Origin: Bacillota bacterium
Lineage (GTDB): Bacteria; Bacillota; Sulfobacillia; JAJYWN01; JAJZPE01
NCBI GenBank assembly: GCA_021787335.1
Contig: JAJYMC010000064.1
Coordinates: forward strand, 1-51,507
Reading direction: 5' to 3'
DNA: 51,507 nucleotides
Positions 2,049-37,809 of this stretch are shown one piece after another. Position 1 is the first letter of the stretch, and every line of letters starts with the position of its first letter. The notes below the pieces were generated by a model. The model did no database searches and was not told the DNA's origin. It saw only the letters and a list, made by a program, of their open reading frames with translations. The translations under genes and the position numbers were made by a program.

Positions 2049-3842
2049 ATGAAGGACTCTTCAGCCAAGAAAGGCCAGGCCCCGTCGGCGAACTGCTCGC
2101 CGGCCGAGCGGGCCGCCCAGAGCGCCGCGCCCAACTGCGCCCCAGGCGCCTCCGCCGCGTCCGCCATCGCGGACGCCCCGGCCGCGCCCGAGCCCGGCGC
2201 GGCCTACGACCCGTCGGTCATCCAGGTGGCCGAGAAGCCGGAAGCGGGCCGCGAGCGCAAGAAGGTCTTCCAGACCATCTCCAGCAAGCCGATCAAGGCC
2301 CTCTACACGCCGGCCGACGTCGCCGACCTCGATTACGACGAGGACCTCGGCACGCCGGGCGAGTTCCCCTTCACCCGCGGCATCCATGAGTCCATGTACC
2401 GCGGTCGGCTCTGGACGATGCGCCAGTTCTCCGGCTTCGGTTCGGCCGAAGACACCAACGCCCGTTTCAAGTACCTCCTCGCCAACGGCCAGACCGGCCT
2501 GTCGACGGCCTTCCACATGCCGACGATCATGGGCTACGACTCGGACCACCCGCGGTCCGACGGCGAGGTCGGCAAATTGGGCGTGGCCATCGACTCCCTG
2601 GCCGACATGGAGATACTGTTCAGCGGCATCCCCCTCGACAAGGTCTCGACCTCGATGACCACCAACGCCCCGGCCTCCATCCTCCTGGCCATGTACATCG
2701 CCGTGGCCGAGAAGCAGGGCGTCCGCGCCGACCAGGTCTCGGGGACCATCCAGAACGACATCCTCAAAGAATACATCGCCCAGAAGTCCTACATCTTCCC
2801 GCCGCGGCCGTCGATGCGGCTCATCACCGACATCTTCGCCTACGCCGCCAAGCATGTGCCGCGATGGAACACCATCAGCATCAGCGGCTACCACATCCGC
2901 GAGGCGGGTTCCACGGCCGTCCAGGAGCTGGCCTTCACTCTGGCCGACGGGATGGAGTACGTCCGCGCCGGCGTCGAGGCCGGCCTCGACGTCGATGAGT
3001 TCGCCCCGCGCCTCTCCTTCTTCTTCAACGCCCACAACGACCTCTTCGAGGAGATCGCCAAGTACCGCGCCGCCCGCCGGATCTGGGCCCGGGTCATGCG
3101 CGACCGGTTCAAGGCCAAGAGCCCGCGGTCGTGGATGCTCCGCTTCCACACCCAGACGGCCGGCTGCTCGCTCACCGCGCAGCAACCCGAGAACAACATC
3201 GTCCGTACGGCCATGCAGGGCCTGGCGGCGGTCCTCGGCGGCACCCAGTCCCTGCACACCAACTCGATGGACGAGGCCCTCGCCCTGCCCAGCGCCAAGG
3301 CCGTGACCATCGCCCTCCGCAGCCAGCAGATCCTGGCCGAGGAGAGCGGGGTCGCCAACACCATCGACCCGCTGGCCGGTTCCTACTTCGTCGAGGCCCT
3401 CACCGACGAGATGGAGAAGGGCGCCGAGGAATACTTCGCCAAGATCGAGGCCCTCGGCGGGGTCATCCCGGCCATCGAGAAGGGCTTCTTCCAGCGCGAG
3501 ATCGCCGACGCGGCCTACCGCTTCCAGCGGCAGGTGCAGGCCGGCGAGCAGACCATCGTCGGGGTCAACAAGTACGTCTCCGGCGAGCCGCTCTCGATCC
3601 CCATCCTGAAGATCGACCCTGAGGTCCAGCGGCGGCAGATCGAGCGGACGCGGCGCGTCCGGGCCACCCGCGACCAGAAGGAGTGGGCCGACTCGCTGGC
3701 CGCCCTCAAGCGGGCCTGCCAGGGGACGGACAACGTCATGCCGCACATCCTCCGGGCCGTCAAGGCCTACGCCACCCTCGGCGAGCTGTGCGACGTCATG
3801 CGCGAGGTCTTCGGGGTCTATCGTGAGCCGGCCATCTACTGA
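2049..3842 (+). CDS. icmA: Adenosylcobalamin-dependent acyl-CoA mutase, large subunit (isobutyryl-CoA-mutase type)
   Basis: 597 residues of the methylmalonyl-CoA mutase family, catalytic barrel only; the B12 domain is a separate gene (4511-4912). GGGAGG (2036-2041) precedes the ATG. Residues 1-65 are an Ala/Pro-rich extension. Family motifs: [13 protein letters not shown] (118-131), TIQNDILKE (233-241), SISGYH with the conserved His282. By alignment from memory with the Propionibacterium enzyme, the two residues that read the substrate carboxylate, Tyr89 and Arg207, are Phe127 and Gln245 here. Phe plus Gln is the pair known from isobutyryl-CoA mutase, which interconverts isobutyryl-CoA and n-butyryl-CoA. 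Subunit sizes also fit IcmA/IcmB. The downstream acyl-CoA dehydrogenase fits a C4 acyl-CoA role. No MeaB/MeaI-type GTPase gene is in the window. Family certain; substrate inferred. Confidence 0.85.
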
Positions 3843-4482
3843 TTCGCAGCAGACCGGACCGGCCCCGATCACCGCGGCTCTTATCTTCGTAGCCCTGTTC
3901 GTGAGAATCGCCCTTCGGCAATGGTTGCAGGCCAGGGGAAGCCAGGCTGGCTTTCCGGTCTGGGTGCTCTCGGCGTATGTTCTCCTGCCGGCTATGGCCT
4001 GGGTCGAGCGCAAGCGCCTGGCGGCTTTCTACCTGACCACCGCAAACCTGCGACAAGCTCTCAAGGAAGGGCTGTTGCTGGCGGCCCTGGCCATCCCAGA
4101 GGCGGTCGGCGCCGCCCGGTTCCTGGTCGGCGGGATAGCCTGGGCCCCGCCTGGCATGGCCTTCATGGCCTTGGCCAACGGGTTCTTCGCCGCATCGCTC
4201 ATCGAGGAGCCGCTCTTCCGCGGCTTTCTGCTCGGGTTCCTGCGTCGTTGGGGCCTCGGTGAAGCGGCGGCCGTCATCATCCAGGCCGTCATCTTCCTGA
4301 GCGGGCACCTTCGCTATGCGGCGCGGGGGCAGTGGTGGATGTTCGCCTGGGTCCTGGCGTGGGGGCTTATCCTCGGATGGCAGGCCAGCCGTCACCGGAC
4401 GATCGCCGGGACGGTCGTCACGCACGCCCTGGTCAACACGATCGTCTTCATGTTCATCGGCGGGGCGGTGACTTCGCTCTAG
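3823..4482 (+). CDS. CPBP family intramembrane metalloprotease (CAAX protease-like)
   Basis: About 219 residues with several hydrophobic segments. The family's motifs are present in order: EEPLFRG (EExxxR), FLSGH (FxxxH) and HALVN (HxxxN). Such proteins are intramembrane peptidases; characterised relatives act in prenyl-protein processing, bacteriocin immunity or signalling. The GTG start at 3823 overlaps the end of the mutase large-subunit gene by 20 bases and the B12-subunit gene follows 28 bases after the stop. It is therefore co-transcribed with, and sits inside, the mutase gene pair. No direct link to acyl-CoA chemistry is known to me. Confidence 0.8.
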
Positions 4483-4510
4483 GCCCAGTTTCCTACGGGG
4501 GGATCGATCC

Positions 4511-4912
4511 ATGGAGGAACGCAAGATCAGAGTCCTGGTCGGCAAGCCGGGCCTGGACGGCCACGACCGTGGGGCCAAGGTCGTTGCCCGCGCCTTTCGG
4601 GACGCCGGGATGGAGGTCATCTACACCGGCCTGCACCAGACGCCGGAGCAGATCGTCGAGGCGGCGCTCCAGGAGGACGTCGACGTGGTCGCTCTGTCCA
4701 TCCTCTCGGGCGCCCACAACACCCTCGTCCCCAAGGTGGTCGACCAGCTCAAGGAGAAGGGGATGGGGGACGTCCTCGTCCTCGTCGGGGGCATCATCCC
4801 CGAGGACGACGTGCCCTTCCTGAAATCGGCCGGCGTGGCCGGCTGCTTCGGCCCCGGCACCAGCACTGACGACATCGTCGCCTTCACCCGCGCCAACGTC
4901 CGCCGGGCCTGA
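4511..4912 (+). CDS. icmB: Cobalamin-binding small subunit of the acyl-CoA mutase
   Basis: 133 residues, a stand-alone B12-binding domain. The DxHxxG motif is GLDGHDRG (residues 14-21); its His would be the lower axial ligand of adenosylcobalamin. Further B12-fold signatures are LSILSGAH and VGGIIPEDD, which line the nucleotide-loop groove. Length fits IcmB or archaeal-type mutase small subunits (about 130-140). It should pair with the large subunit at 2049-3842 even though a CPBP gene lies between them. Only a G-rich stretch (about 4496-4502) serves as ribosome binding site. Confidence 0.88.
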
Positions 4913-4967
4913 GGGCCGGGCGACGGGCCACATCGCTACCAGATGAACCAATAAGGAGGAGCCGGCG

Positions 4968-6107
4968 ATGGACTTCCGACTCACCGAAGAACAGCAAATG
5001 ATCCGCCGCACCGCCCGTGAGTTCGCCGAACGCGAGCTGGCCCCGGTGGCCATCGAGCTCGACAAGACCGGCGAGTTCCCCTGGGACAACTGGCACAAGA
5101 TGGCCAAGCAAGGCTTCGTCGGGATGACCCTTTCGCCGGAGTATGGCGGGGGCGGGGCCGGCCTGCTTGAATTCACCCTGGTCCTCGAGGAGCTGTCGCG
5201 GGTCTGCGCCTCGACCGCCGTCATCCTTGAGGTCCATAACTCGCTGCACGCCGAGACCATCGAGCATTTCGGGACCCCGGAGCAGAAGCAGAAGTGGCTG
5301 CCCGACCTGGCCACCGGGAAGAAGCTCGGGGCCTTCGCCCTGACCGAGCCGAACGCCGGCTCGGACTCGGCCGCCCAGCAATCGACGGCCGTCCTCAAGG
5401 GTGACCATTACGTCCTCAACGGCCTGAAGTGCTTCATCACCAGCGGCTCCAAGGCCGACCTGTATCTTGTCATGGCGATGACCGACAAGAGCAAGGGCAA
5501 CAAGGGTATCACCGCCTTCGTCGTCGAGAAGGACCGCAAGGGCGTCTCCTTCGGCCTCCCCGAGGACAAGATGGGCATCCGGGCCTCGATCCAGACCGAC
5601 CTCATCCTCGAGGACGTCGAGGTCCCGGTGGAGAACCGGCTCGGCGCCGAGGGCGACGGCTTCAAGATCGCCATGACCGCTCTGGACAGCGGGCGCATCG
5701 GCATCGGCGCGCAGGCCCTGGGCATCGCCCAGGCGGCCCTGGACGCCTCGGTGGCCTACGCTAAGCAGCGGGTCCAGTTCGGCAAGCCCATCGCTGAGCT
5801 CCAGGCCATCCAGTGGAAGCTGGCCGAGATGGCCACCGACATCGACGCCGCGAGGCTGCTGCTCTACCGCGCCGCCTGGCTGCGCGACCAGGGCGGCCGG
5901 GTCAGCAAGGAGATCGCCATGGCCAAGCTCTTCTGCGCCCAGGTGGCCATGCGGCATACCGTCGAGGCCGTCCAGATCCACGGCGGCAATGGCTACATGC
6001 GCGAGTACAAGGTCGAGCGGTATATGCGTGACGCCAAGATCACCCAGATCTACGAGGGTACCTCTGAGGTCATGAAGCTCATCATCGCCTCGAGCCTGTT
6101 GCGGTAG
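4968..6107 (+). CDS. Acyl-CoA dehydrogenase, short-chain (butyryl-CoA) type
   Basis: 379 residues, the normal length. AAGGAGGAG lies just before the ATG. The FAD/substrate signatures are clear: FALTEPNAGSD, the C-terminal QIHGGNGYMREY, and IYEGTSE, whose first Glu (E363) is the catalytic base position of short-chain enzymes. It removes alpha,beta hydrogens from acyl-CoA and passes electrons to an electron-transfer flavoprotein, which is not in this window. It closes the mutase operon and is followed by a strong terminator, so a butyryl-, isobutyryl- or other short acyl-CoA is the likely substrate. The exact chain length cannot be read from sequence. Confidence 0.92.
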   Translation: MDFRLTEEQQMIRRTAREFAERELAPVAIELDKTGEFPWDNWHKMAKQGFVGMTLSPEYGGGGAGLLEFTLVLEELSRVCASTAVILEVHNSLHAETIEHFGTPEQKQKWLPDLATGKKLGAFALTEPNAGSDSAAQQSTAVLKGDHYVLNGLKCFITSGSKADLYLVMAMTDKSKGNKGITAFVVEKDRKGVSFGLPEDKMGIRASIQTDLILEDVEVPVENRLGAEGDGFKIAMTALDSGRIGIGAQALGIAQAALDASVAYAKQRVQFGKPIAELQAIQWKLAEMATDIDAARLLLYRAAWLRDQGGRVSKEIAMAKLFCAQVAMRHTVEAVQIHGGNGYMREYKVERYMRDAKITQIYEGTSEVMKLIIASSLLR

Positions 6108-6150
6108 CAGATAACGGAGGTCCGCGCCCGCGCCAGTCACCCGTAACGAA

Positions 6151-6182
6151 AAGCTCCCGCCCAACGCGGGAGCTTCTTGTTT
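6151..6182 (+). terminator. Rho-independent terminator of the mutase/dehydrogenase operon
   Basis: Perfect 10-bp stem AAGCTCCCGC / GCGGGAGCTT (6151-6160, 6166-6175) with loop CCAAC, then a T-rich tail (CTTGTTTTC). It lies 43 bases after the dehydrogenase stop. Confidence 0.88.
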
Positions 6183-6228
6183 TCATGGGGTCACGGCAGA
6201 GAACGGATGGGCACGCGGAGGCCCTGTT

Positions 6229-7875
6229 TCACCGGCCGGCGGCCAGCCCCTTCAGATCGAGGACCTCGATCCAGATGGTGCTGTGGACCGACGAGTAGAC
6301 CGGAATGGCCAACCGGTCGCCGGATGGGGAGGGCAGGATGGGCTGGCCAAGGTAGTCCCCGGCCGTGGCGGTCAGGATGGCTGTCTTGCCGCTGTCCCCG
6401 CCCCTGCCGGCCGCGCCCGGTTTGAGCAAAGCAATCTCGGTGTCACCCACGGAGAGGACCGCGTCGCCGACCCATCGGGCGTGGAGGACGTCGGTCGTCA
6501 GGAGATGAGTGACCGACAGGCCCGCGTCAAGGTTATTGGCGTCGAGGAGGTCGAGCCCCTTGCCATCGACGGGCAGAACCAGCGCGCGCCCGTCATGCCA
6601 GGTCCCGGCGGGCTCGCTCAAGGTGCCGCCGCTGACGGCGTCATTCTGCTTGGTGGTCGGGACGAAGGCGACGATCTTGGCCACCGCGTCGGCCACGCCC
6701 CGGACCGGGTACCAGTCGCCCTGGTCGTCCTGGGCGAAACCGGTGAGGAGCAACAGCCGGCCGTCGGGGGACCAGGAGGTCTGGGCGAGGAACCACTTCA
6801 GCTTGTCCACGGGGAAGCCGGCCTTGGCCAGGGCGGGGGCCAGGTCGATGGTCAACTTGACCTCCCCGGCCGGGGAGATCAGCCGTAGCTCGGTGGCCAC
6901 GAAGGGCTCGGGCTGATCCGGGCTCAGCTCCACGTTGTCGCTGGACTGGCCGCTCGTGGGGTCGAAGCCGATGACCCGCAGGCCGTCGGCCGAAAGGCCC
7001 ACCGGCTCAGCCCTGACCTGGTCGGCGGAATCCCAGACGAAGTCGTAGGCCACCTCGTAATTGTCAGGGCCGGCGACCCGGCTCGTCTTGCCGGTCGGCA
7101 GGTCGATCAGGAGCCACTCGCCGTAGCTGCCCTCGGTGTACCCGTGAAGGTAGCGGCGAACGACCAGCTGCTTGCCATCGGGCGACCACGTGGGCGTGCT
7201 GAAGTAGTTAAGCTGGTCGAACGAACCGATGGCCTTGAGCACGCCGTCCGCGAGGTTCAGGGACCAGAGCTTGCCGACGGTGGCGGCGTCGGTGGGGTAG
7301 AGGGCGCCGACGATGGTCGAGCCGTCCGGGGACCAGGTCAGGAAATCGGCGGCGAGGCTCGGGTTGGTCTGGCCGGCCCCGGCGTAGGACCAGGTCGACA
7401 CCTTGCCGGTGGCCAGCTCAAGGACGGCCAGGCAGCCGTCCACGCTATAGGCCAGGCGCGCCCCATCGGCCGAGAGGTCGTAGCTCCCTCTGACGTCTTT
7501 GACTTCATAGACTTTCCTGGCGGCCAGGTCGGCCATGGCTCGAAGGTCGCCGCCGGCGAGGATGCCAAGGGCCCGCGGGCCGAGCCAGCCATAGGCGGCC
7601 TCCTGATAGGGGACCAGGAGCGGGCCGACCTGAAGGCCGAGGGCCGACGCGGTCACGGCGGGGCTGCCCGTCCCGCTGGTGTCGACCGCCCCCGGGGTGA
7701 TCGGGTTGATTTTCCCAGCCTGTCCTTCGGTCGGGTTCAACTGGACGTCGTCGCCTTGGCCGCCGGTCTTCGGGCTCGCGGTCAGCTTGCAGCCCGAGGC
7801 GAGGAGAGTCAGGGCGAGAAGAATGGTTGCGGCCAGAAAGAGCGGCTTCTTTCTCAGCAACGAACGGCCTCCCAT
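6229..7875 (-). CDS. Predicted lipoprotein with WD40/TolB-like beta-propeller repeats
   Basis: About 548 residues from the ATG at 7875; an in-frame ATG at 7968 would add 31 polar residues ahead of the signal peptide. The 7875 start gives a classic lipoprotein leader: basic SLLRKK, hydrophobic core, lipobox LLASGC. The body has repeated WSPDG blades (for example TWSPDGSTIVG, TWSPDGKQLVV, SWSPDGRLLLL), as in TolB or PD40 propellers. It is probably an extracytoplasmic binding protein; no catalytic residue is recognised. It is divergent from the phosphoesterase at 8023. A TATAAT on the minus strand (7981-7986) lacks a matching -35. Confidence 0.8.
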   Translation of the reverse strand: MGGRSLLRKKPLFLAATILLALTLLASGCKLTASPKTGGQGDDVQLNPTEGQAGKINPITPGAVDTSGTGSPAVTASALGLQVGPLLVPYQEAAYGWLGPRALGILAGGDLRAMADLAARKVYEVKDVRGSYDLSADGARLAYSVDGCLAVLELATGKVSTWSYAGAGQTNPSLAADFLTWSPDGSTIVGALYPTDAATVGKLWSLNLADGVLKAIGSFDQLNYFSTPTWSPDGKQLVVRRYLHGYTEGSYGEWLLIDLPTGKTSRVAGPDNYEVAYDFVWDSADQVRAEPVGLSADGLRVIGFDPTSGQSSDNVELSPDQPEPFVATELRLISPAGEVKLTIDLAPALAKAGFPVDKLKWFLAQTSWSPDGRLLLLTGFAQDDQGDWYPVRGVADAVAKIVAFVPTTKQNDAVSGGTLSEPAGTWHDGRALVLPVDGKGLDLLDANNLDAGLSVTHLLTTDVLHARWVGDAVLSVGDTEIALLKPGAAGRGGDSGKTAILTATAGDYLGQPILPSPSGDRLAIPVYSSVHSTIWIEVLDLKGLAAGR

Positions 7876-8022
7876 GGAAGTGATTGTGCCCCAGGTGATC
7901 GTCCCTACGGTCTTTGACGACGGCCCGTCCTTCGCGGTTCCGAAGGCCGGGCCGTTTTCCGTGGTCATCTTCAGGTAACAATTATAGCGTGGGGCCCTTG
8001 AGCGCCTCTTGGGGGTGAGCTA

Positions 8023-9621
8023 ATGTCCATCCGTCCCACCCGCTTCAATCGAGGACTGATCATCGCCCTGGCCGTCGTCGTCGCCGCGGGACTGGCCGGC
8101 GGCGGCTACTGGCTCGGGTGGCGTCACGTCGCCCGACGGCTGGCCGAGCAAGAGCAGCGACTGGCCAAGAAACTGGGCGGGGACGGGGTCCTGGCCGGCC
8201 GCGCGGCCGGCGTCGTTTGCGACGTCAATGGTCCCGGTGACGGCCCGGTCGTGGTCGTCCGCGACCAGGGCAGCGGCACGATCGTCACCGTCGTGACCAC
8301 CGCCCGGACGGCCGTCGTCAAGGGCGGCGCGGCCGCGGGCGTGGACGCCGTCAAGCCTGGCATGACGGTCGAAGTCGTCGGGGACTTCGCCGACGGCCTC
8401 ATCACCGCCAGGCAGGTGACCGTGACCGGCGAGATGCCCGCCCCCGGCGCCGCGCCCGGCGGGACGATGGGCTCGGGCCACCCGACCGAGCCGGGCGGCC
8501 TGGCGACCGGCGGCATCCCCCCGGGGGCCTCGGGCGTCCCGGCCCCGGCCGGCTTCCCAGGGGCCAAGATCAAGCACGTCATCTACATCATCCAGGAGAA
8601 CCACAGCTTCGATAGCTACTTCGGGACCTTCCCCGGGGCCAACGGCCTGCCGGCCGACCTGAAGCTGCCGACCACGCCCGGCGCCGTCCCGACCATCGCC
8701 CCGTTCCATCAGCCCGGCCTGACCCACGACATGCCTCACACCTGGAACGACGCCTGGAAGGCGTACGACGACGGCAAGATGGACGGCTTCGTCCACGTCG
8801 CCGGCTCGCCGGACGCGATGGGCTACTACGACGCCTCGGACCTCCCGAACTACTGGGCCTATGCTAAAGAGTTCGTACTCATGGACGGCTTTTTCTCCTC
8901 ATTGATGGGCCCGTCCTTGCCGAACCACCTCTACATCGTGGCCGGCCAGTCCGGCGGGGTGACCGCGAACATGCGAGAGGCGCCGGAGGCCGGGTTTGAT
9001 TTCCCGACCATGGCGTCTCTCTTGGCGAAGTCCAGTGTGACCTGGAAGTTCTATGACGGCAAGCCTGACCCGAAGGTCTTCTCGCTGTGGAACCCGCTGC
9101 CCGGCTTCGCCGAGTTCAAGGCCGACCCGTCCCTGGCCGACCACCTCGTCGGCACCGACCAGCTTTTCTACGACCTGCGGCACGGCACGCTGCCCCAGGT
9201 GGCCTGGGTCGTGCCGAACGACGCGGAGAGCGAGCATCCGCCGGCGAACCTGCGCCTCGGGATGTGGTACGTGACCAGCCTCGTCAACGCGGCGATGAAG
9301 AGCCAGTACTGGGACGAGACGGCCATCGTCCTGGCCTGGGATGACTACGGCGGCTTCTACGACCACGTGCCCCCGCCGCGGATGGACCAGTACGGATACG
9401 GCCCCCGCGTTCCGGCGATGGTCATCTCGCCCTACGCCAAGAAGGGCTTCATCGACCATACCCAGTACGACCTGACCTCGGTCCTCAGGTTCATCGAGGA
9501 CCGCTTCGGCCTGCCGGCCCTGACCGACCGCGACCGCGACGCCAACGACCTCCTGACGGCCTTCGACTTCACGCAGGCCCCGCGGGGCCCGTCGCTCATC
9601 CTGCCTCCCGTGGCAAAATGA
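8023..9621 (+). CDS. Membrane-anchored phosphoesterase (acid phosphatase / phospholipase C family)
   Basis: 532 residues. GGGGGTGA precedes the ATG. Residues about 10-32 form a single transmembrane anchor. Residues about 60-135 look like a small beta-domain of the DUF5666 kind. Residues about 180-525 are the phosphoesterase domain of the AcpA/PlcC family: the opening motif is [17 protein letters not shown], and [14 protein letters not shown] is the later metal-site motif. Members hydrolyse phosphomonoesters or phospholipids outside the cell. The Gly/Pro-rich stretch between the domains (about 140-178) is a linker. The exact substrate cannot be told. Confidence 0.88.
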
Positions 9622-9626
9622 CCGCC

Positions 9627-10520
9627 CTACCGACCCGAAGTGACCGTGCCCGAACGGGACGTGACCCGCCCGCGCGGAGTGATCTCCGTCACCAGCGCCA
9701 CGCTGACCAGGATCAGCCCGAAGCCGATCAGCGTGCCCAGGTCGAACCTCTCGTGCAGGAAAAGGGAACCCCAGAGCGTGCCAAAGGCCGGGACCAGGTA
9801 GGCGTTCATGGAGGCGAAGATCGGGCCGACCTCGGCGATGAGCCGGAAGAAGAGCAGGTAGGCGACGGCCGTCGTCAACACGAGCCCCAGGACACACCCG
9901 ATGGCGGTGGCCGACGGAGCTTGGCGGGGGAGGGTGAACGGGACCAACGGAAGCAGGACCAGCGAGGCGAAGAAGAGGCTGCCCATGGCCAGGACCTGGG
10001 GATGCTCCTCCGGGACCTTGACCCTCATGTAGACCGGGGCCAGGCCGTAAGAGACGGCGGCCGCCAGGGACAGCCCGGCGGACACGAGCGTCGCCGGGGT
10101 CACCGGGACGGGGCCCAGGCCGATGATGGCGACCGCGCCGATGAAACCGACGGCCAACCCGGCTGCCTTGCGGACGGTGAACACCTCGCCCATCATCAAC
10201 GCGGCGAAGACGGCCGCGAACAGCGGGGTCGTGGCGTTCAGGATGGAGGCCAGCGAGGCCGGCAGGCGCAGCTCGGCGGCGGCGATGAGGACGAAGGGGA
10301 GGGCTGAGTTGATGACCCCGACGGCCAGGTGGTGACGCCAATGGGCGCGGAACCTGGTCGTCCCACGAGTCGCCAGGATGTAGCCGAGAAGCAACAGGCC
10401 GGCCATGAGTACTCTCAGCTCGATGAGGAGGACCGGCCCGAAGACCGGCACGGCCACGCGGACGAAGATGAAGGAGCCACCCCAGAGGGCCGAGAGGAGG
10501 ATGAGGGCAACTAGATTCAT
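9627..10520 (-). CDS. EamA/DMT-family transporter
   Basis: About 297 residues from the ATG at 10520, with ten hydrophobic segments arranged as two EamA repeats; the first opens MNLVALILLSALWGGSFIFV. The family exports amino acids and other metabolites. Its ATG overlaps the stop of the D-aminoacylase gene by four bases, so the two are translationally coupled. Export of a D-amino acid or a product of the aminoacylase is a fair guess but not shown. The gene ends five bases from the convergent phosphoesterase gene. Confidence 0.88.
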   Translation of the reverse strand: MNLVALILLSALWGGSFIFVRVAVPVFGPVLLIELRVLMAGLLLLGYILATRGTTRFRAHWRHHLAVGVINSALPFVLIAAAELRLPASLASILNATTPLFAAVFAALMMGEVFTVRKAAGLAVGFIGAVAIIGLGPVPVTPATLVSAGLSLAAAVSYGLAPVYMRVKVPEEHPQVLAMGSLFFASLVLLPLVPFTLPRQAPSATAIGCVLGLVLTTAVAYLLFFRLIAEVGPIFASMNAYLVPAFGTLWGSLFLHERFDLGTLIGFGLILVSVALVTEITPRGRVTSRSGTVTSGR

Positions 10521-30539: not shown

Positions 30540-31445
30540 TTACTCGACGGGCACCCACCGGTTGTACGGGGCCCGGATGAGCTTCGCCGGGTGACTGGCC
30601 GTCTCGGCTGAGGCGGCGATATCGGCCCACTCGATCCGGTTCAGGAAGATATCATGGTCCCAGTGGACCGGGATGAGGGTCCGGGGCCTGAGGCAGCCAT
30701 CGATGACCGCGGCCGTGTCTTCGGGCCCGGTTATTTCTTTTGTCGGCTCCTTGGTCTGAGGGTGGGTGAGCAGCCCGGCGATGTTGACCACGGCCACGTC
30801 GACCGGGCCTTTGGGCATGGAGCGTAGACGGTTATCGCCACTGATGTAGATAACCGTGGACGTTCCGCCCGCCCTCGGAAGGCCGATGAAGAAGCCCAGC
30901 ATCGGGCCACCGCAGGGCATGACGCCATAGCGGTCGGGGCGCTCGGCAAACCTGGCTGCCGCCCGCGAACCGTCCTCGCCGGTCAGCCAGTGGTCCCCGG
31001 CCAGGGGCCGCAGGACCGGCCGGCCGGGGTCGCCGACAACCGCCCGGCCGGGGTCTTCGCCGGCTTGTCCCACCGGCTCCAACGAAGGAAGCTCGTAGGC
31101 CCCCCCGCTCTCCAGGGCGAAGGTCCGCTCGGGGGCGATGCCGCAGACCGTCCGCAGCGTCTCGGCCACCTCGGCCGACCCTCCGAACCGGCACCCGAGC
31201 CGGGCGGCGGCGATGGCCTTGACCGTTTCCAGGTCGAAATGGTCGAAATGGCCGTGGGTGACCAGGACCACGTCGGGGGCGAAGCCGGCGATGTACTCGT
31301 CGAAGGCGGGGGCATGCGGGTTGGGCGTGTACCACGGGCCATAGACGCCTGCCCGCGAGAAGACAGGGTCGACGACCACCACCGGGCCACCTTCACCCAG
31401 GCGCAGGCTGACGCTGGCCGCTCCGTGCCAGGCGAACTCCAACAA
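30540..31445 (-). CDS. Metallo-beta-lactamase-fold hydrolase (UlaG-like)
   Basis: About 301 residues. I prefer the TTG at 31445, eight bases after GAAGGAG; a GTG at 31472 gives nine more residues. The metal motif is THGHFDHFD (HxHxDH); later ligands are in YISGDNRL (Asp) and IPVHWDHD (His). The fold and motif pattern fit the UlaG/L-ascorbate-6-phosphate-lactonase-like group rather than beta-lactamases. A stretch around GEDPGRAVVGDPGRPV looks inserted relative to the core fold. It follows the ATP-grasp gene by 40-70 bases, so it is probably under the same c-di-AMP riboswitch. Confidence 0.85.
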   Translation of the reverse strand: MLEFAWHGAASVSLRLGEGGPVVVVDPVFSRAGVYGPWYTPNPHAPAFDEYIAGFAPDVVLVTHGHFDHFDLETVKAIAAARLGCRFGGSAEVAETLRTVCGIAPERTFALESGGAYELPSLEPVGQAGEDPGRAVVGDPGRPVLRPLAGDHWLTGEDGSRAAARFAERPDRYGVMPCGGPMLGFFIGLPRAGGTSTVIYISGDNRLRSMPKGPVDVAVVNIAGLLTHPQTKEPTKEITGPEDTAAVIDGCLRPRTLIPVHWDHDIFLNRIEWADIAASAETASHPAKLIRAPYNRWVPVE

Positions 31446-31511: not shown

Positions 31512-32405
31512 TCAGGCTCGGGCGCGATAGTCCGCCCGCATCCCATAACGCCGTTCGGCCGTCTCCATGATCAGGCCGACGGCCTCGGTCAGGCTCAGGC
31601 CGGACGAGGTCAGGGCCCGGACGAAGGCCGAACGCCGCGGCTCCAGGCAGGGCAGGGGATCGATCGATTCGACCAGCACCGGCCCATCGGCCGGGGCGAC
31701 CAGCCGGACCTCGGCGTAGTCGCGACAGCCGAGGGCGTGATAGGCTGTCAGGGCGGCTTCTCCGGCCTCTGGACGCCGCGCCTCGAGGGCCTCGCCTTCC
31801 TCGCCGGGCAGGCGCTCGATGAAGGTCTGGGGGTCCTCGTTGCCGATCACGGCCACGCTGAAGCGGAGACCAGCTGGACGCCGCAGGACCAGCGCCGGGC
31901 GGGAGGGCCCGACCTTGGCCGCGCGAAGGGCGAGGCCGAGCGACTCGGCGTCTTCCGCGAGCAGCGGGCCGAGGACCTCGGTCGCTCCGGTGACTTCCGT
32001 GCAGCGGACGAGGACTGGGAAGGCCAACTGACGGGCGGGGGCCTCGGGCTCGCCCGTCCGGCAGACGGCGAAGTCGGCGAGGGGTGTCCCGCCGGCCTTC
32101 AGGGCCCGGTAAGCGGCGGCCGGCGAAAGGGCCAGCACGCAAGGCGCCAGGCCCGACCCGGCGTACCGGAAGCCGGCCATCTCCAGGTCGGCCACCAGGC
32201 GCACCCTGGCGTGCAGGGAGCGGTCGCCGGCCGGGTGGAGGACGAGGCCGAGGTCCTCCTGGGGGGCCAGGCGGCGGATCTCCTCAGATGGTAGAAGCAC
32301 GGGTTCGAGGGCCAGTTCCTCGATGGCCTTGCGGACGGCGGCGGTGGCCCCCGGTGCCGCCGCGCTGGTGACGATACCGATGCGCGGTGAGAGGGTTGAA
32401 GACAC
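31512..32405 (-). CDS. Degenerate D-alanine-D-alanine-ligase-like ATP-grasp protein
   Basis: About 297 residues from the GTG at 32405, behind AGGGAGGA. The layout follows D-Ala-D-Ala ligases: RIGIVTSAA at the start, YAGSGLAPCVLALSPAAAYR (the SG..A..A.DK region, with the Asp-Lys replaced), FPVLVRCTEVTG where ligases have FPxxVKPxxxGSS (Lys changed to Arg, Ser loop changed), YHALGCRDYAEVRL and VESIDPLPCLEP where ligases have ExNPxPG (Asn changed to Asp). Several ATP and Mg residues are thus altered, so catalysis is doubtful; a binding or regulatory role is possible. It is directly downstream of a c-di-AMP riboswitch and terminator. Confidence 0.65.
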   Translation of the reverse strand: MSSTLSPRIGIVTSAAAPGATAAVRKAIEELALEPVLLPSEEIRRLAPQEDLGLVLHPAGDRSLHARVRLVADLEMAGFRYAGSGLAPCVLALSPAAAYRALKAGGTPLADFAVCRTGEPEAPARQLAFPVLVRCTEVTGATEVLGPLLAEDAESLGLALRAAKVGPSRPALVLRRPAGLRFSVAVIGNEDPQTFIERLPGEEGEALEARRPEAGEAALTAYHALGCRDYAEVRLVAPADGPVLVESIDPLPCLEPRRSAFVRALTSSGLSLTEAVGLIMETAERRYGMRADYRARA

Positions 32406-32438
32406 GGCGATTCCTCCCTTCGCGGGCGCCGACGACAA

Positions 32439-32459
32439 AGCCCGGGGATACCCCGGGCT
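32439..32459 (-). terminator. Expression-platform terminator of the c-di-AMP riboswitch
   Basis: On the minus strand AGCCCGGGG / CCCCGGGCT (32459-32451, 32447-32439) with loop TAT, then TTTG. It lies between the riboswitch aptamer and the ATP-grasp gene start, as expected for an OFF switch working by transcription termination. The T run is short. Confidence 0.7.
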
Positions 32460-32507
32460 CTGAAGCGGCAAGAGGAATGGGCCGCGGCCGCCCGCAGGCG
32501 GCGCGGA

Positions 32508-32653
32508 GCCTGACCTCTTCCACGCTTACGAGGTTAGCTGTCGGGTTCGGGTCGAAAGGTGACCCTACCGCCGCCGATTGACCGGCCGGCGGATTCACCC
32601 CGGTTCGAGTGGGTCCCCCGTTTCCCCTGAGGGGAATTCAGCGTTCTCCAGGC
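32508..32653 (-). promoter_or_regulatory. c-di-AMP riboswitch (ydaO/yuaA type)
   Basis: On the minus strand the conserved blocks appear in order and spacing: ACGCTGAAT, ACGGGGGACCCA, GGGGTGAATC, CGACCCGAACCCG, and ACAGCTAACCTCGTAAGCG. These are the signature blocks of the ydaO/yuaA aptamer as in Bacillus subtilis. GCCTG (32653-32649) can pair with CAGGC (32512-32508) to close P1. A consensus -35 promoter lies just upstream and a hairpin terminator downstream. In known cases c-di-AMP binding lowers expression of cell-wall hydrolases and of potassium or osmolyte transporters. Confidence 0.92.
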
Positions 32654-32673
32654 CCGTATGATTGTCGGCCCTT

Positions 32674-32702
32674 AGTCTATCCCAACGCCCGGGGCGTGTC
32701 AA
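32674..32702 (-). promoter_or_regulatory. Sigma-A promoter of the riboswitch transcript
   Basis: On the minus strand TTGACA (32702-32697, full consensus), 17 bases, TAGACT (32679-32674). The predicted transcript start near 32667 is about 14 bases before the riboswitch P1 stem. Confidence 0.8.
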
Positions 32703-32749: not shown

Positions 32750-33799
32750 TTACCGGGCCGCCCGCCGAAAAAACCCACCGGCGCTGGCCCGCTCGCCGGG
32801 AGCCAACAGGCGGCTCTCGTCGATGAGTTCGGATACCGTCACCAGACGATATCCCTGGCCGGTCAGGTAATCGATGATCTGCGGCAGGGCCTGGGCGGTC
32901 TGATCGACCGGATGCATGAGGACGATGCCGCCGTTGCCGACCCGCTTCTTGACCCGCTCGACGATGGTGCCCACGCCGGGGCGCATCCAATCGACCGTGT
33001 CCGCGCTCCACATGATGGCCCGCATCCCCAGCTGGGCGGCGACGTCAAGGCCCCGCCCGTCAATCTCCCCATACGGCGGGGAGAAGATGCGCGGCCGGTT
33101 GCCGGTCAGCTTGGCGACGGTGTCGGTGCCCCGCTCGATCTCCGACCTTATCTGGTCCGGCGAGAGCTGCTTGATGTGCCGATGGGCGTAGCCGTGGCTG
33201 GCCACCTCGTGGCCGCCCCGGACGATGGCGGCGGCCAGGTCGGGCTGGTCCTCGGCCCAGGTCCCGACGAGGAAGAAGGTCGCCCGGACCTTCGCCCGCT
33301 CCAGGATGAGCAGGATCTCGGCCAGGGGCTCCTCGCCCCAGGCGACGTTGAAGGTCAGGGCCACCTCGCGACGGGCGGTATGCCCGTGCCGGGTCGGCAG
33401 GTCGGCGAAGTGGTCGAGGCCGACCTCCGGCGCGACCGCCTCGCTGACCAGGGCGACGGCCATGCGAGGCCGGGCCGTCATGACCGCCTTCTCGGTGGCG
33501 GCCACGTCGACGCGGCGGCCCGGGAGGCCGGGGACGGCCGACTGGTCGCGGTGGTCGACGGCGGCGTTGACCGGCCGGACGTCCCGGTCCCTGGCCATCT
33601 CGAGGACCAGCCGGTGGAGCGCCTCCCCGTCGAGGCCGCCGACCTCCTGGCCCTCCAGGGTCACCCCCGTCCGCACCAGCGCGCCCCCGGGCCGGTGCCC
33701 GCCGACGGCGCAACCGGCCGCGAAGAGCGTGACCCAGATGATGGTCAAGACGACGCAGAGCCCGACGGCGACACGCGTGCGGGTCGCCAAAGCGCTCAC
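32750..33799 (-). CDS. Polysaccharide deacetylase-like protein (YlxY-like), exported
   Basis: 349 residues, GTG start. The N-terminus has a hydrophobic segment ending in FAAGC (Cys30), a possible lipobox. Residues about 40-125 resemble the small peptidoglycan-binding-type domain that carries the PGRRVDVxAT motif. Residues about 145-330 form the NodB domain: ATFFLVGTWAEDQPDL, SHGYAH with His202/His206, FSPPYGEID and VLMHP. The first NodB motif, usually TFDDGP, is TFNVAWGEE: the catalytic Asp is Asn151 and the metal Asp is Val152, as in YlxY-type proteins. Activity is therefore uncertain; a wall- or sporulation-related role is inferred. The gene ends upstream of the riboswitch promoter. Confidence 0.8.
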   Translation of the reverse strand: MSALATRTRVAVGLCVVLTIIWVTLFAAGCAVGGHRPGGALVRTGVTLEGQEVGGLDGEALHRLVLEMARDRDVRPVNAAVDHRDQSAVPGLPGRRVDVAATEKAVMTARPRMAVALVSEAVAPEVGLDHFADLPTRHGHTARREVALTFNVAWGEEPLAEILLILERAKVRATFFLVGTWAEDQPDLAAAIVRGGHEVASHGYAHRHIKQLSPDQIRSEIERGTDTVAKLTGNRPRIFSPPYGEIDGRGLDVAAQLGMRAIMWSADTVDWMRPGVGTIVERVKKRVGNGGIVLMHPVDQTAQALPQIIDYLTGQGYRLVTVSELIDESRLLAPGERASAGGFFRRAAR

Positions 33800-36069: not shown

Positions 36070-37395
36070 TCAGAACAAGGTCGAAAAGGGCGCAGACTGG
36101 GGCTTGGATCCACGATAAACCTGTCTGGCATGGTACCTCAAGGCCTTGGAGTCCAGGCGGTGCCTAATGACCAGCTTTTGACCCAGTAACCGCGGTTCAA
36201 CCTGGCCGTGGATGGTCAGGTGCTCTGGTTCGACCATCATTGCACCATAGTCGAACAGGGCATGATGATTAGGGCAGAGACAGAGCATATTCTCGGGGTC
36301 ATCATGGCCCCCGTGATCCCCTCCAAGCGGCCGGACGTGGTGCGTCTCCGCGTAGCCGCTTCCATCGCTCAGGGTTAGCCTGGTTCCGCAGACTTGGCAC
36401 GTGTAATCATACAACCGCTTGATCCGACCGCTAGTGGCCGTGTCTCTGATGATTCGCCGGGTCGTCGCCAGCACCCTGGTCGGGGGCTCATCGCTATCGG
36501 CCGCGAAGTCCGATTCCGCGTCCGGCCGGCAAGAACCCATGGTTTCCGCGTATTCAACTAGCGCGGCCCAATGGTCAGGTTGAAGGGAGAAGTTAGTCCC
36601 ACGCGGATTTCGCCATAGGAGGAGGCCATCGAAGCGAGGATCCTGTCTGAGCATCTCTTTATCGATGACGTGGGGCAGATGGTATAGATGGGTGACCTTC
36701 ACTCTGAGCTTCGGCTGATTGGCTTCCTCGGCCTTTCGCCAGTATTGACTTGGCGTGTGTTCGGGCCGTTTCACTTGCGGTTCGCCGGCCACTTGACCAA
36801 GCGCGACCACACCCGCCTCCGGACCGGACCTCCAGATGACCGCTCCGTCACCGACCTTGATCCTCTTTTCATACCTTGTGACGGTCCAGTCGTCTGCAGC
36901 CATAGCTGCGAAGTAACCGTCGAGACGGAAAATCTTTGGGCTGCATTGAAAGAGCCAGAAATTGCGGCTGCCCAAGTCGCCCTCGAGTTCACGGTGAAGT
37001 AGGTCGTAGTCGAGTGCTACGACTTTCGAGCTGTCACAAGCGGGGGCCTTCATGAGGTTTGCCCTGGCGCTACTCTGGGATACCCTCAGCCGTGAAAGAA
37101 GGGCGAACAAGAACGCCGAACGGAACCGCCCCTCAAAGCCCTCAACCCGAAGGTCCTCGGGCTGCAAGCTGGTAGTTCCCTTAGCCAATAGCAGTCCGAC
37201 CGCTTCGAGTATCGACGACCATGGGATAACCTCGGCAGGGCGCCAAACGTACTCATCTTGAGCAGTCCTCACAATGAGCCCCTCTTGGGTAATCTCCTCG
37301 ATCTTGTTCGGCCTCCCGCGAGTGGCCGTCGTTAAAATCCGACCCTTCAGCGGCAACAGGACTGCGTCCAGGCCATATGGGATGGAACTCACCAT
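36070..37395 (-). CDS. EVE-domain / HNH endonuclease fusion (modified-DNA restriction-like)
   Basis: 441 residues, GGAGGG four bases before the ATG. Residues about 10-105 match an N-terminal module seen in related HNH proteins (GRxxTTATRGRPNKI, FRSAF). Residues about 145-283 are an EVE/PUA-like domain: NFWLFQCSP, WTVTRYEKRIKVGD, VIWRSG, RNPRGTNFSLQPDHWAAL. EVE domains bind modified bases. Residues about 329-385 are HNH: YTCQVCG (zinc Cys333/Cys336), ETHHVRPLGG, PENMLCLCPNHHALFD (zinc and the HNH Asn/His). The combination suggests cleavage of modified DNA, as in type IV restriction. Base composition is lower in GC than the neighbours, which fits acquisition. Confidence 0.85.
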   Translation of the reverse strand: MVSSIPYGLDAVLLPLKGRILTTATRGRPNKIEEITQEGLIVRTAQDEYVWRPAEVIPWSSILEAVGLLLAKGTTSLQPEDLRVEGFEGRFRSAFLFALLSRLRVSQSSARANLMKAPACDSSKVVALDYDLLHRELEGDLGSRNFWLFQCSPKIFRLDGYFAAMAADDWTVTRYEKRIKVGDGAVIWRSGPEAGVVALGQVAGEPQVKRPEHTPSQYWRKAEEANQPKLRVKVTHLYHLPHVIDKEMLRQDPRFDGLLLWRNPRGTNFSLQPDHWAALVEYAETMGSCRPDAESDFAADSDEPPTRVLATTRRIIRDTATSGRIKRLYDYTCQVCGTRLTLSDGSGYAETHHVRPLGGDHGGHDDPENMLCLCPNHHALFDYGAMMVEPEHLTIHGQVEPRLLGQKLVIRHRLDSKALRYHARQVYRGSKPQSAPFSTLF

Positions 37396-37557: not shown

Positions 37558-37809
37558 CTAGACAGAGTGCGTCTCACTCAGACTGTCGTCCTCGGGCCCT
37601 GAGTAGTCAAGGACAGTCGCGCCGGGGTTCGCGGCAATCAGTTGATCCATGGCCTTGATCACCCGTGCGCTCAACCATTCCTCGCCACATGAGGAACAGC
37701 GCCTCACGGGCACGTCAACGATCTGAATTCGGCGCCCGCCGCGGAGCCTGGTCAGTGTGGAGTTAGCCGGGGCCATCTGTCCGTCACATACATGGCACCG
37801 TGCCATCAT
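37558..37809 (-). CDS. YgiT-type zinc-finger protein (MqsA N-terminal-like)
   Basis: 83 residues; GGGAGGG precedes two adjacent ATG codons (37809, 37806). Two CxxC pairs, CHVCDG (near residue 5) and CSSCGEEW (near residue 38), with VDVPVRRC between them, are the YgiT zinc-finger signature. In MqsA this domain binds the MqsR toxin, while a separate HTH domain binds DNA; that HTH is absent here. No toxin gene (MqsR, DUF4258) is found next to it, so it is an orphan. It has its own good promoter and lies beside the EVE-HNH gene in a lower-GC patch. Confidence 0.82.
   Translation of the reverse strand: MMARCHVCDGQMAPANSTLTRLRGGRRIQIVDVPVRRCSSCGEEWLSARVIKAMDQLIAANPGATVLDYSGPEDDSLSETHSV

Follow-up and report, generated by a model that had tools for sequence, protein, structure and literature searches.

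The window, by which we mean the whole 51,507-nucleotide stretch of DNA analysed, carries on its minus strand a promoter, a c-di-AMP riboswitch aptamer, a degenerate gene related to D-Ala-D-Ala ligase (Ddl), here called the pseudo-ligase gene, and a gene for an MBL-fold hydrolase (Table 1). The promoter reported in the initial annotation was located at 32702-32674 (TTGACA, a 17-nt spacer and TAGACT). It is the sole sigma-70-like match across 1.36 kb, compared to 0.0 expected in shuffled sequences, and both hexamers are also seen in the leaders of the two orthologous loci (G001 and G002; the window's own genome is G000). The aptamer begins 21 bases after the promoter end, ahead of the pseudo-ligase start at 32405. 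Its earlier assignment to the ydaO/yuaA class was borne out by covariance-model search: cmscan aligned it over positions 1-134 of the 134 in RF00379, with a score far above the gathering cut-off (93.8 versus 38 bits, E 6e-21), and this is the single such match in the window. The orthologous aptamers score 95.0 bits (G001) and 91.8 bits (G002), each directly 5' of a pseudo-ligase gene, and the three are 82-89% identical in pairwise comparison. With other members of RF00379 (ydaO/yuaA, e.g. the B. subtilis kimA leader), the window aptamer shares all conserved blocks and the leader position; it differs in its target, a degenerate ATP-grasp protein, and in the weak terminator tail that follows it.

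Table 1. Features of the riboswitch-led unit and the gene 5' of it, in window coordinates
Feature	Position	Strand	Basis or remark
Polysaccharide deacetylase gene (sporulation PdaB/YlxY-like)	32750..33799	(-)	5' of promoter; context, outside the unit
Sigma-70-like promoter, TTGACA-N17-TAGACT	32674..32702	(-)	promoter scan
c-di-AMP (ydaO/yuaA) riboswitch aptamer, RF00379	32508..32653	(-)	cmscan
Predicted alternative helix, AAGCGUGGAAGAGG (32527-32514) with CCUCUUGCCGCUU (32475-32463)	32463..32527	(-)	MFE and constrained folds
GC-rich hairpin, possible terminator	32436..32462	(-)	folding; ahead of gene
Degenerate Ddl-like ATP-grasp protein (pseudo-ligase), 297 aa	31512..32405	(-)	weak Ddl matches, motif loss, fold, dN/dS
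MBL-fold metal-dependent hydrolase	30540..31445 (or from 31472)	(-)	PF13483/PF12706

Elsewhere in the window, positions 36073-37395 encode a fusion of an EVE domain and an HNH endonuclease (PF01878, PF13391) that resembles a modification-dependent restriction enzyme, and the product of positions 37558-37809, which is small and bears a CxxC..CxxC zinc motif, looks by eye like the N-domain of a YgiT/MqsA-type antitoxin.

Between the aptamer and the gene lies a GC-rich hairpin with the core GCCCGGGG-TAT-CCCCGGGC (32458-32440; extended stem 32462-32436). It had been annotated as a terminator. The hairpin itself is present and kept in all three orthologues, but its role in termination is uncertain, as the U-tract is weak: the tail reads UUUGUCG in the window, with U3 in both G000 and G001, and CUUUUUG (U5) in G002. 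A terminator scan of the window leader did not call the hairpin, because of its UUUGUCG tail. A plain intrinsic terminator thus found no match in the window, but given the U5 of G002 one may still operate.

In the MFE fold of the free leader, AAGCGUGGAAGAGG, comprising the 3' strand of aptamer helix P1 plus flanking nucleotides, pairs with CCUCUUGCCGCUU, and in the predicted folds this helix and P1 are mutually exclusive. The strong GC hairpin comes next, followed by the ribosome site. The 3' arm of the alternative helix (CCUCUU) is predicted to be able to pair with the Shine-Dalgarno sequence as well. When P1 was enforced in constrained folds, this pairing reached a probability of up to 0.98 in G001 and ∼0.29 in G000, and was absent in G002; Shine-Dalgarno masking as the sole mechanism therefore has strong fold support in G001, weak support in G000 and none in G002. 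We infer from the modelled folds that the alternative helix is the expression platform. Because the conserved hairpin has a weak U-tract (U5 in G002), both termination and ribosome-site masking are possible, and the switching step might be either one, with the predicted competition between the two hairpins being ambiguous. Termination and translational control have both been described for c-di-AMP switches (PMC9960051). In the mechanism we propose, bound c-di-AMP would hold P1 in place and free the CCUCUU arm, and hairpin termination or Shine-Dalgarno masking would follow. By analogy with published ydaO switches, which behave in this way, the unit would be off at high c-di-AMP by either route.

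The pseudo-ligase gene likely starts at GTG 32405, with the ribosome binding site (RBS) AGGGAGGAAU at 32419-32410, and ends at 31512; a 319-aa version of the ORF begins at a TTG further upstream, within the leader. The protein misses all Ddl family cut-offs in Pfam and NCBIfam (PF07478, 20.7 versus 24 bits; TIGR01205, 18.5 versus 245.65 bits), and what weak match there is corresponds to the C-terminal domain. Searched with phmmer, it matches Ddl and VanA chains at E values of 1e-8 or weaker. Its AlphaFold2 model, built from a 16-sequence alignment that includes Ddl-like relatives, has a pLDDT of 87, and the structure matches listed (Foldseek, VIA) are all Ddl-type ligases, with Z values of ∼25-27 over ∼275 residues, among them 3i12 (Z 27.0). 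Compared with Ddl (PF07478/TIGR01205), then, the protein shares a predicted whole fold and a weak sequence match, whereas its catalytic residues are replaced or deleted and its scores fall under every cut-off. A separate, intact canonical Ddl is encoded elsewhere in the same genome.

The extent of the catalytic loss was read from a residue alignment of the three orthologues, that of the window included, with ten comparison proteins (five canonical Ddls and Ddl-like relatives). The positions considered were both lysines of DKxxxK, the lysine of VKP, the serine of GSS, both acidic residues of VEE..GREF, Tyr and Lys of DYxxK, Arg and Asp of ARVD, Glu and Asn of ExN, and the following Gly. All 13 are changed in each of the three orthologues, and the ten comparison proteins retain nearly all of them. 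The motifs had been described as altered in the initial annotation, and so they are, though far more widely than was stated there. Gone from all three proteins are the ATP lysines, the acidic ATP ligands, the Mg2+ ligands D/E/N and the catalytic Arg, and the lid segment containing DYxxK is largely deleted. In E. coli DdlB numbering, the changed counterparts include K97, K144, E180, E187, K215 (segment deleted), R255, D257 (R or H in the three orthologues), E270 and N272. In the ungapped alignment of ESIDPLP, S occupies the position of the ExN Glu and D that of the ExN Asn, with a Glu one residue upstream. An alignment retaining all ATP and Mg ligands would have refuted the initial proposal; the ligands are absent, and the proposal of a non-catalytic homologue is supported by the sequences of all three proteins. 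Assembly error cannot account for the motif losses, as three genomes share them. TTLL12 is an example of a pseudoenzyme with an ATP-grasp fold. As in TTLL12-type proteins, the fold has been kept without working ATP-grasp residues; the lineage and role are unrelated, the window's protein being bacterial and riboswitch-led.

Orthologues of the pseudo-ligase occur in G001, the only same-genus genome (76% identity), and G002, the only same-family genome (56%). When 84,980 species genomes (GTDB contigs) were scanned for more, the same-genus genome came up and no further close orthologue. The open frame, start and RBS are kept in the three genomes at dS ∼0.5-0.9, and the residues that replace the catalytic ones are themselves largely conserved. 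Values of dN/dS (NG86) for the three pairs are 0.29, 0.44 and 0.44, compared to 0.18-0.19 for canonical Ddl in the same genomes, 0.13-0.21 for HpaB and 0.25-0.31 for the MBL, PDA and AstE neighbours (MBL, 0.28-0.31). These ratios indicate that the gene is under purifying selection, somewhat relaxed. Judged by its sequence, this is a conserved pseudo-ligase, an enzyme turned non-enzyme, as opposed to a decaying gene. The search for the same riboswitch-gene pair elsewhere, suggested at the outset, found it kept in three related bacteria, and the pairing of switch and dead ligase is a conserved variant peculiar to the window's family.

The next gene, for the MBL-fold protein, lies 66 nt past the pseudo-ligase stop, with a TTG start at 31445 and its own RBS (AAGGAG). 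The protein scores 37.9 bits against PF13483 (cut-off 24), and its metal motif HGHFDH fits HxHxDH. This gene adjoins the pseudo-ligase gene downstream, an order conserved in all three genomes, and the two are likely co-transcribed, as the initial annotation had inferred.

RF00379 is present in 134 of the 154 genomes of the bacterial class. The window's genome, a 3.5-Mb assembly, has eight such aptamers, and copies other than the one described here lead genes of the kimA-like and peptidoglycan-binding kinds, which is usual for the switch class. A diadenylate cyclase domain was found twice in the genome; taken together with the eight aptamers, this suggests that c-di-AMP is probably made. We read the genes downstream of 29 new RF00379 loci, drawn from the best-scoring matches listed. 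A Ddl-like ATP-grasp gene comes first at five of these, and an opine-dehydrogenase-like gene at two more, as well as at one locus of the window's genome (L001). Further pairs of switch and ATP-grasp gene were collected by coordinate matching of aptamer and protein matches, or by cmscan. Intact Ddl-like genes lie directly behind RF00379 in 13 other genomes (G003, G008, G023, G028, G029, G047, G049, G059, G065, G071, G072, G073 and G074) from five families besides the window's, a count that is not a rate, as the set was partly chosen for known closeness of both features. Chance pairing is unlikely, because a genome has only ∼1-9 PF07478 matches in all. With the window's own family, the total comes to 16 genomes and six families. 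The initial annotation had proposed a non-catalytic or altered ligase homologue as a new kind of target for this switch; as stated, this is not supported, since Ddl-like genes recur behind it in the class. What sets the window's family apart is only that catalysis has been lost. None of the papers searched, a set without the target lists of Nelson 2013 and Block 2010, was found to link D-Ala ligase, ATP-grasp or octopine to this switch.

The switch-linked Ddl-like genes (G003, G008, G023, G028, G029 and others) resemble the window's in superfamily and in having RF00379 directly upstream, and some of their products share the motif ALGCRDYA with the window's protein. Unlike it, they have intact ATP-grasp motifs. 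The neighbours differ as well, with an MBL gene in the window and, for several of the others, opine-dehydrogenase-like plus B12-binding proteins or a solute-binding protein. The order in G003, G008, G049 and G023 is ATP-grasp, octopine-dehydrogenase-like (PF02317 in G003) and B12-binding protein; in G029, G047 and G059, a family-5 solute-binding protein comes next after the ATP-grasp gene. Contig C58 of the window's genome has two switch-led units in tandem (L043, positions 2925-10254 of G000:C58:57000-70000). Unit 1 consists of RF00379, an octopine-dehydrogenase-like gene, a B12-binding/mutase-like protein and a Ddl-like ATP-grasp gene with intact motifs. In unit 2, a second RF00379 leads an opine dehydrogenase gene with an internal shortening and a further B12 protein.

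Other genes also follow the switch in this class. At four loci (L091-L094, in G012, G038, G053 and G018), a gene for a GNAT-like acetyltransferase (213-220 aa, by eye) starts ≤10 bases after RF00379, apparently another recurrent target. At six more (L020, L021, L027, L061, L063 and L078), a gene for an oligopeptide-type solute-binding protein with an extra N-terminal part (VIDxEANRKDEAEAIAANLR) comes directly after RF00379, or after RF00379 and an ATP-grasp gene.

We estimate a probability of about 0.72 that a c-di-AMP riboswitch leads here a short operon whose first gene encodes a selected Ddl-like ATP-grasp protein lacking catalytic residues. Other readings were weighed against this one. The protein could still be a ligase or kinase-like enzyme, its active site rebuilt from other residues: the fold is predicted to be intact, and an E and a D near the old Mg2+ site, invariant in the three orthologues, are candidates (in ESIDPLP, the leading Glu and the Asp that stands for the old Asn). 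But both ATP-phosphate lysines, both VEE..GREF acidic residues, the K215 lid segment and D257 are gone from all three, and we regard a rebuilt site as unlikely. Conservation of the frame, start and RBS at the dS values given above, dN/dS well under 1, largely conserved replacement residues and the aptamer identity of 82-89% all argue against a decaying leftover whose function has moved to the second switch-led locus, on contig C58. That reading draws on the intact Ddl-like gene there and on a dN/dS somewhat above that of the neighbours; we consider it improbable.

The switch might instead chiefly serve the MBL-fold hydrolase, with the ATP-grasp remnant merely carried along. The MBL gene is next in line in all three genomes and is somewhat better conserved at family distance (64% versus 56%). 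Yet it has its own RBS, it is ATP-grasp genes that recur behind the switch, and MBL orthologues at the three loci examined elsewhere in the class have neither RF00379 nearby nor an ATP-grasp neighbour. A class-wide functional tie between MBL gene and switch was thus not seen at these loci, and there is little likelihood, in our view, that the hydrolase is the main target.

The likeliest function of the pseudo-ligase within the c-di-AMP regulon is a non-catalytic one, as a binding protein or as a partner of another protein. Subfamily HMMs score it at 75 bits (switch-linked group), 84 bits (c40-type group) and 33 bits (canonical Ddl), suggesting that it comes from a non-canonical Ddl-like family, as the first two scores exceed the last. 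Placement among the Ddl-like groups by tree and subfamily HMMs failed, since the window's family sits on a very long branch (4.5 changes per site) and two Ddl-like groups tie. Its ancestor would have been a non-canonical Ddl-like ATP-grasp ligase from a family often switch-controlled in the class; the present protein would work without ATP, most likely binding a small molecule or a partner. One candidate partner would be the intact ATP-grasp enzyme from another switch-led locus of the same genome. We suggest, tentatively and at rather long odds, that a dedicated pseudo-ligase under c-di-AMP control serves an active Ddl-like ligase as regulator or partner, so that the messenger would tune a biosynthetic enzyme via its dead homologue. 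The active ligase's pathway might then be that of wall precursors or the switch-controlled opine-dehydrogenase/B12/ATP-grasp pathway.

Deltaproteobacteria and Sandaracinaceae have proteins of ∼680 aa in which two Ddl-like ATP-grasp halves are fused in tandem (L108, 4726-6750; L109, 4888-6927; L120, 4759-6852). By eye, the active site in the first half of the deltaproteobacterial L108 is partly degraded (LNPN for VKP, FRRIDTLPA) and the second half is intact; by analogy, this joining of a degraded to an intact half makes a dead-plus-active pair thinkable.

Known targets of c-di-AMP switches are mostly transporters of potassium, amino acids and osmolytes, along with wall-remodelling proteins (PMC7266159, PMC9960051). 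With Ddl-like ATP-grasp genes recurring behind the switch in this class, c-di-AMP could also be tied to the ligation of amino acids, and among switch targets a dead ligase maintained by selection would stand out as unusual. The set of opine-dehydrogenase, B12 and ATP-grasp genes led by the switch hints at an uncharacterised pathway of small-molecule metabolism, possibly for an osmolyte.
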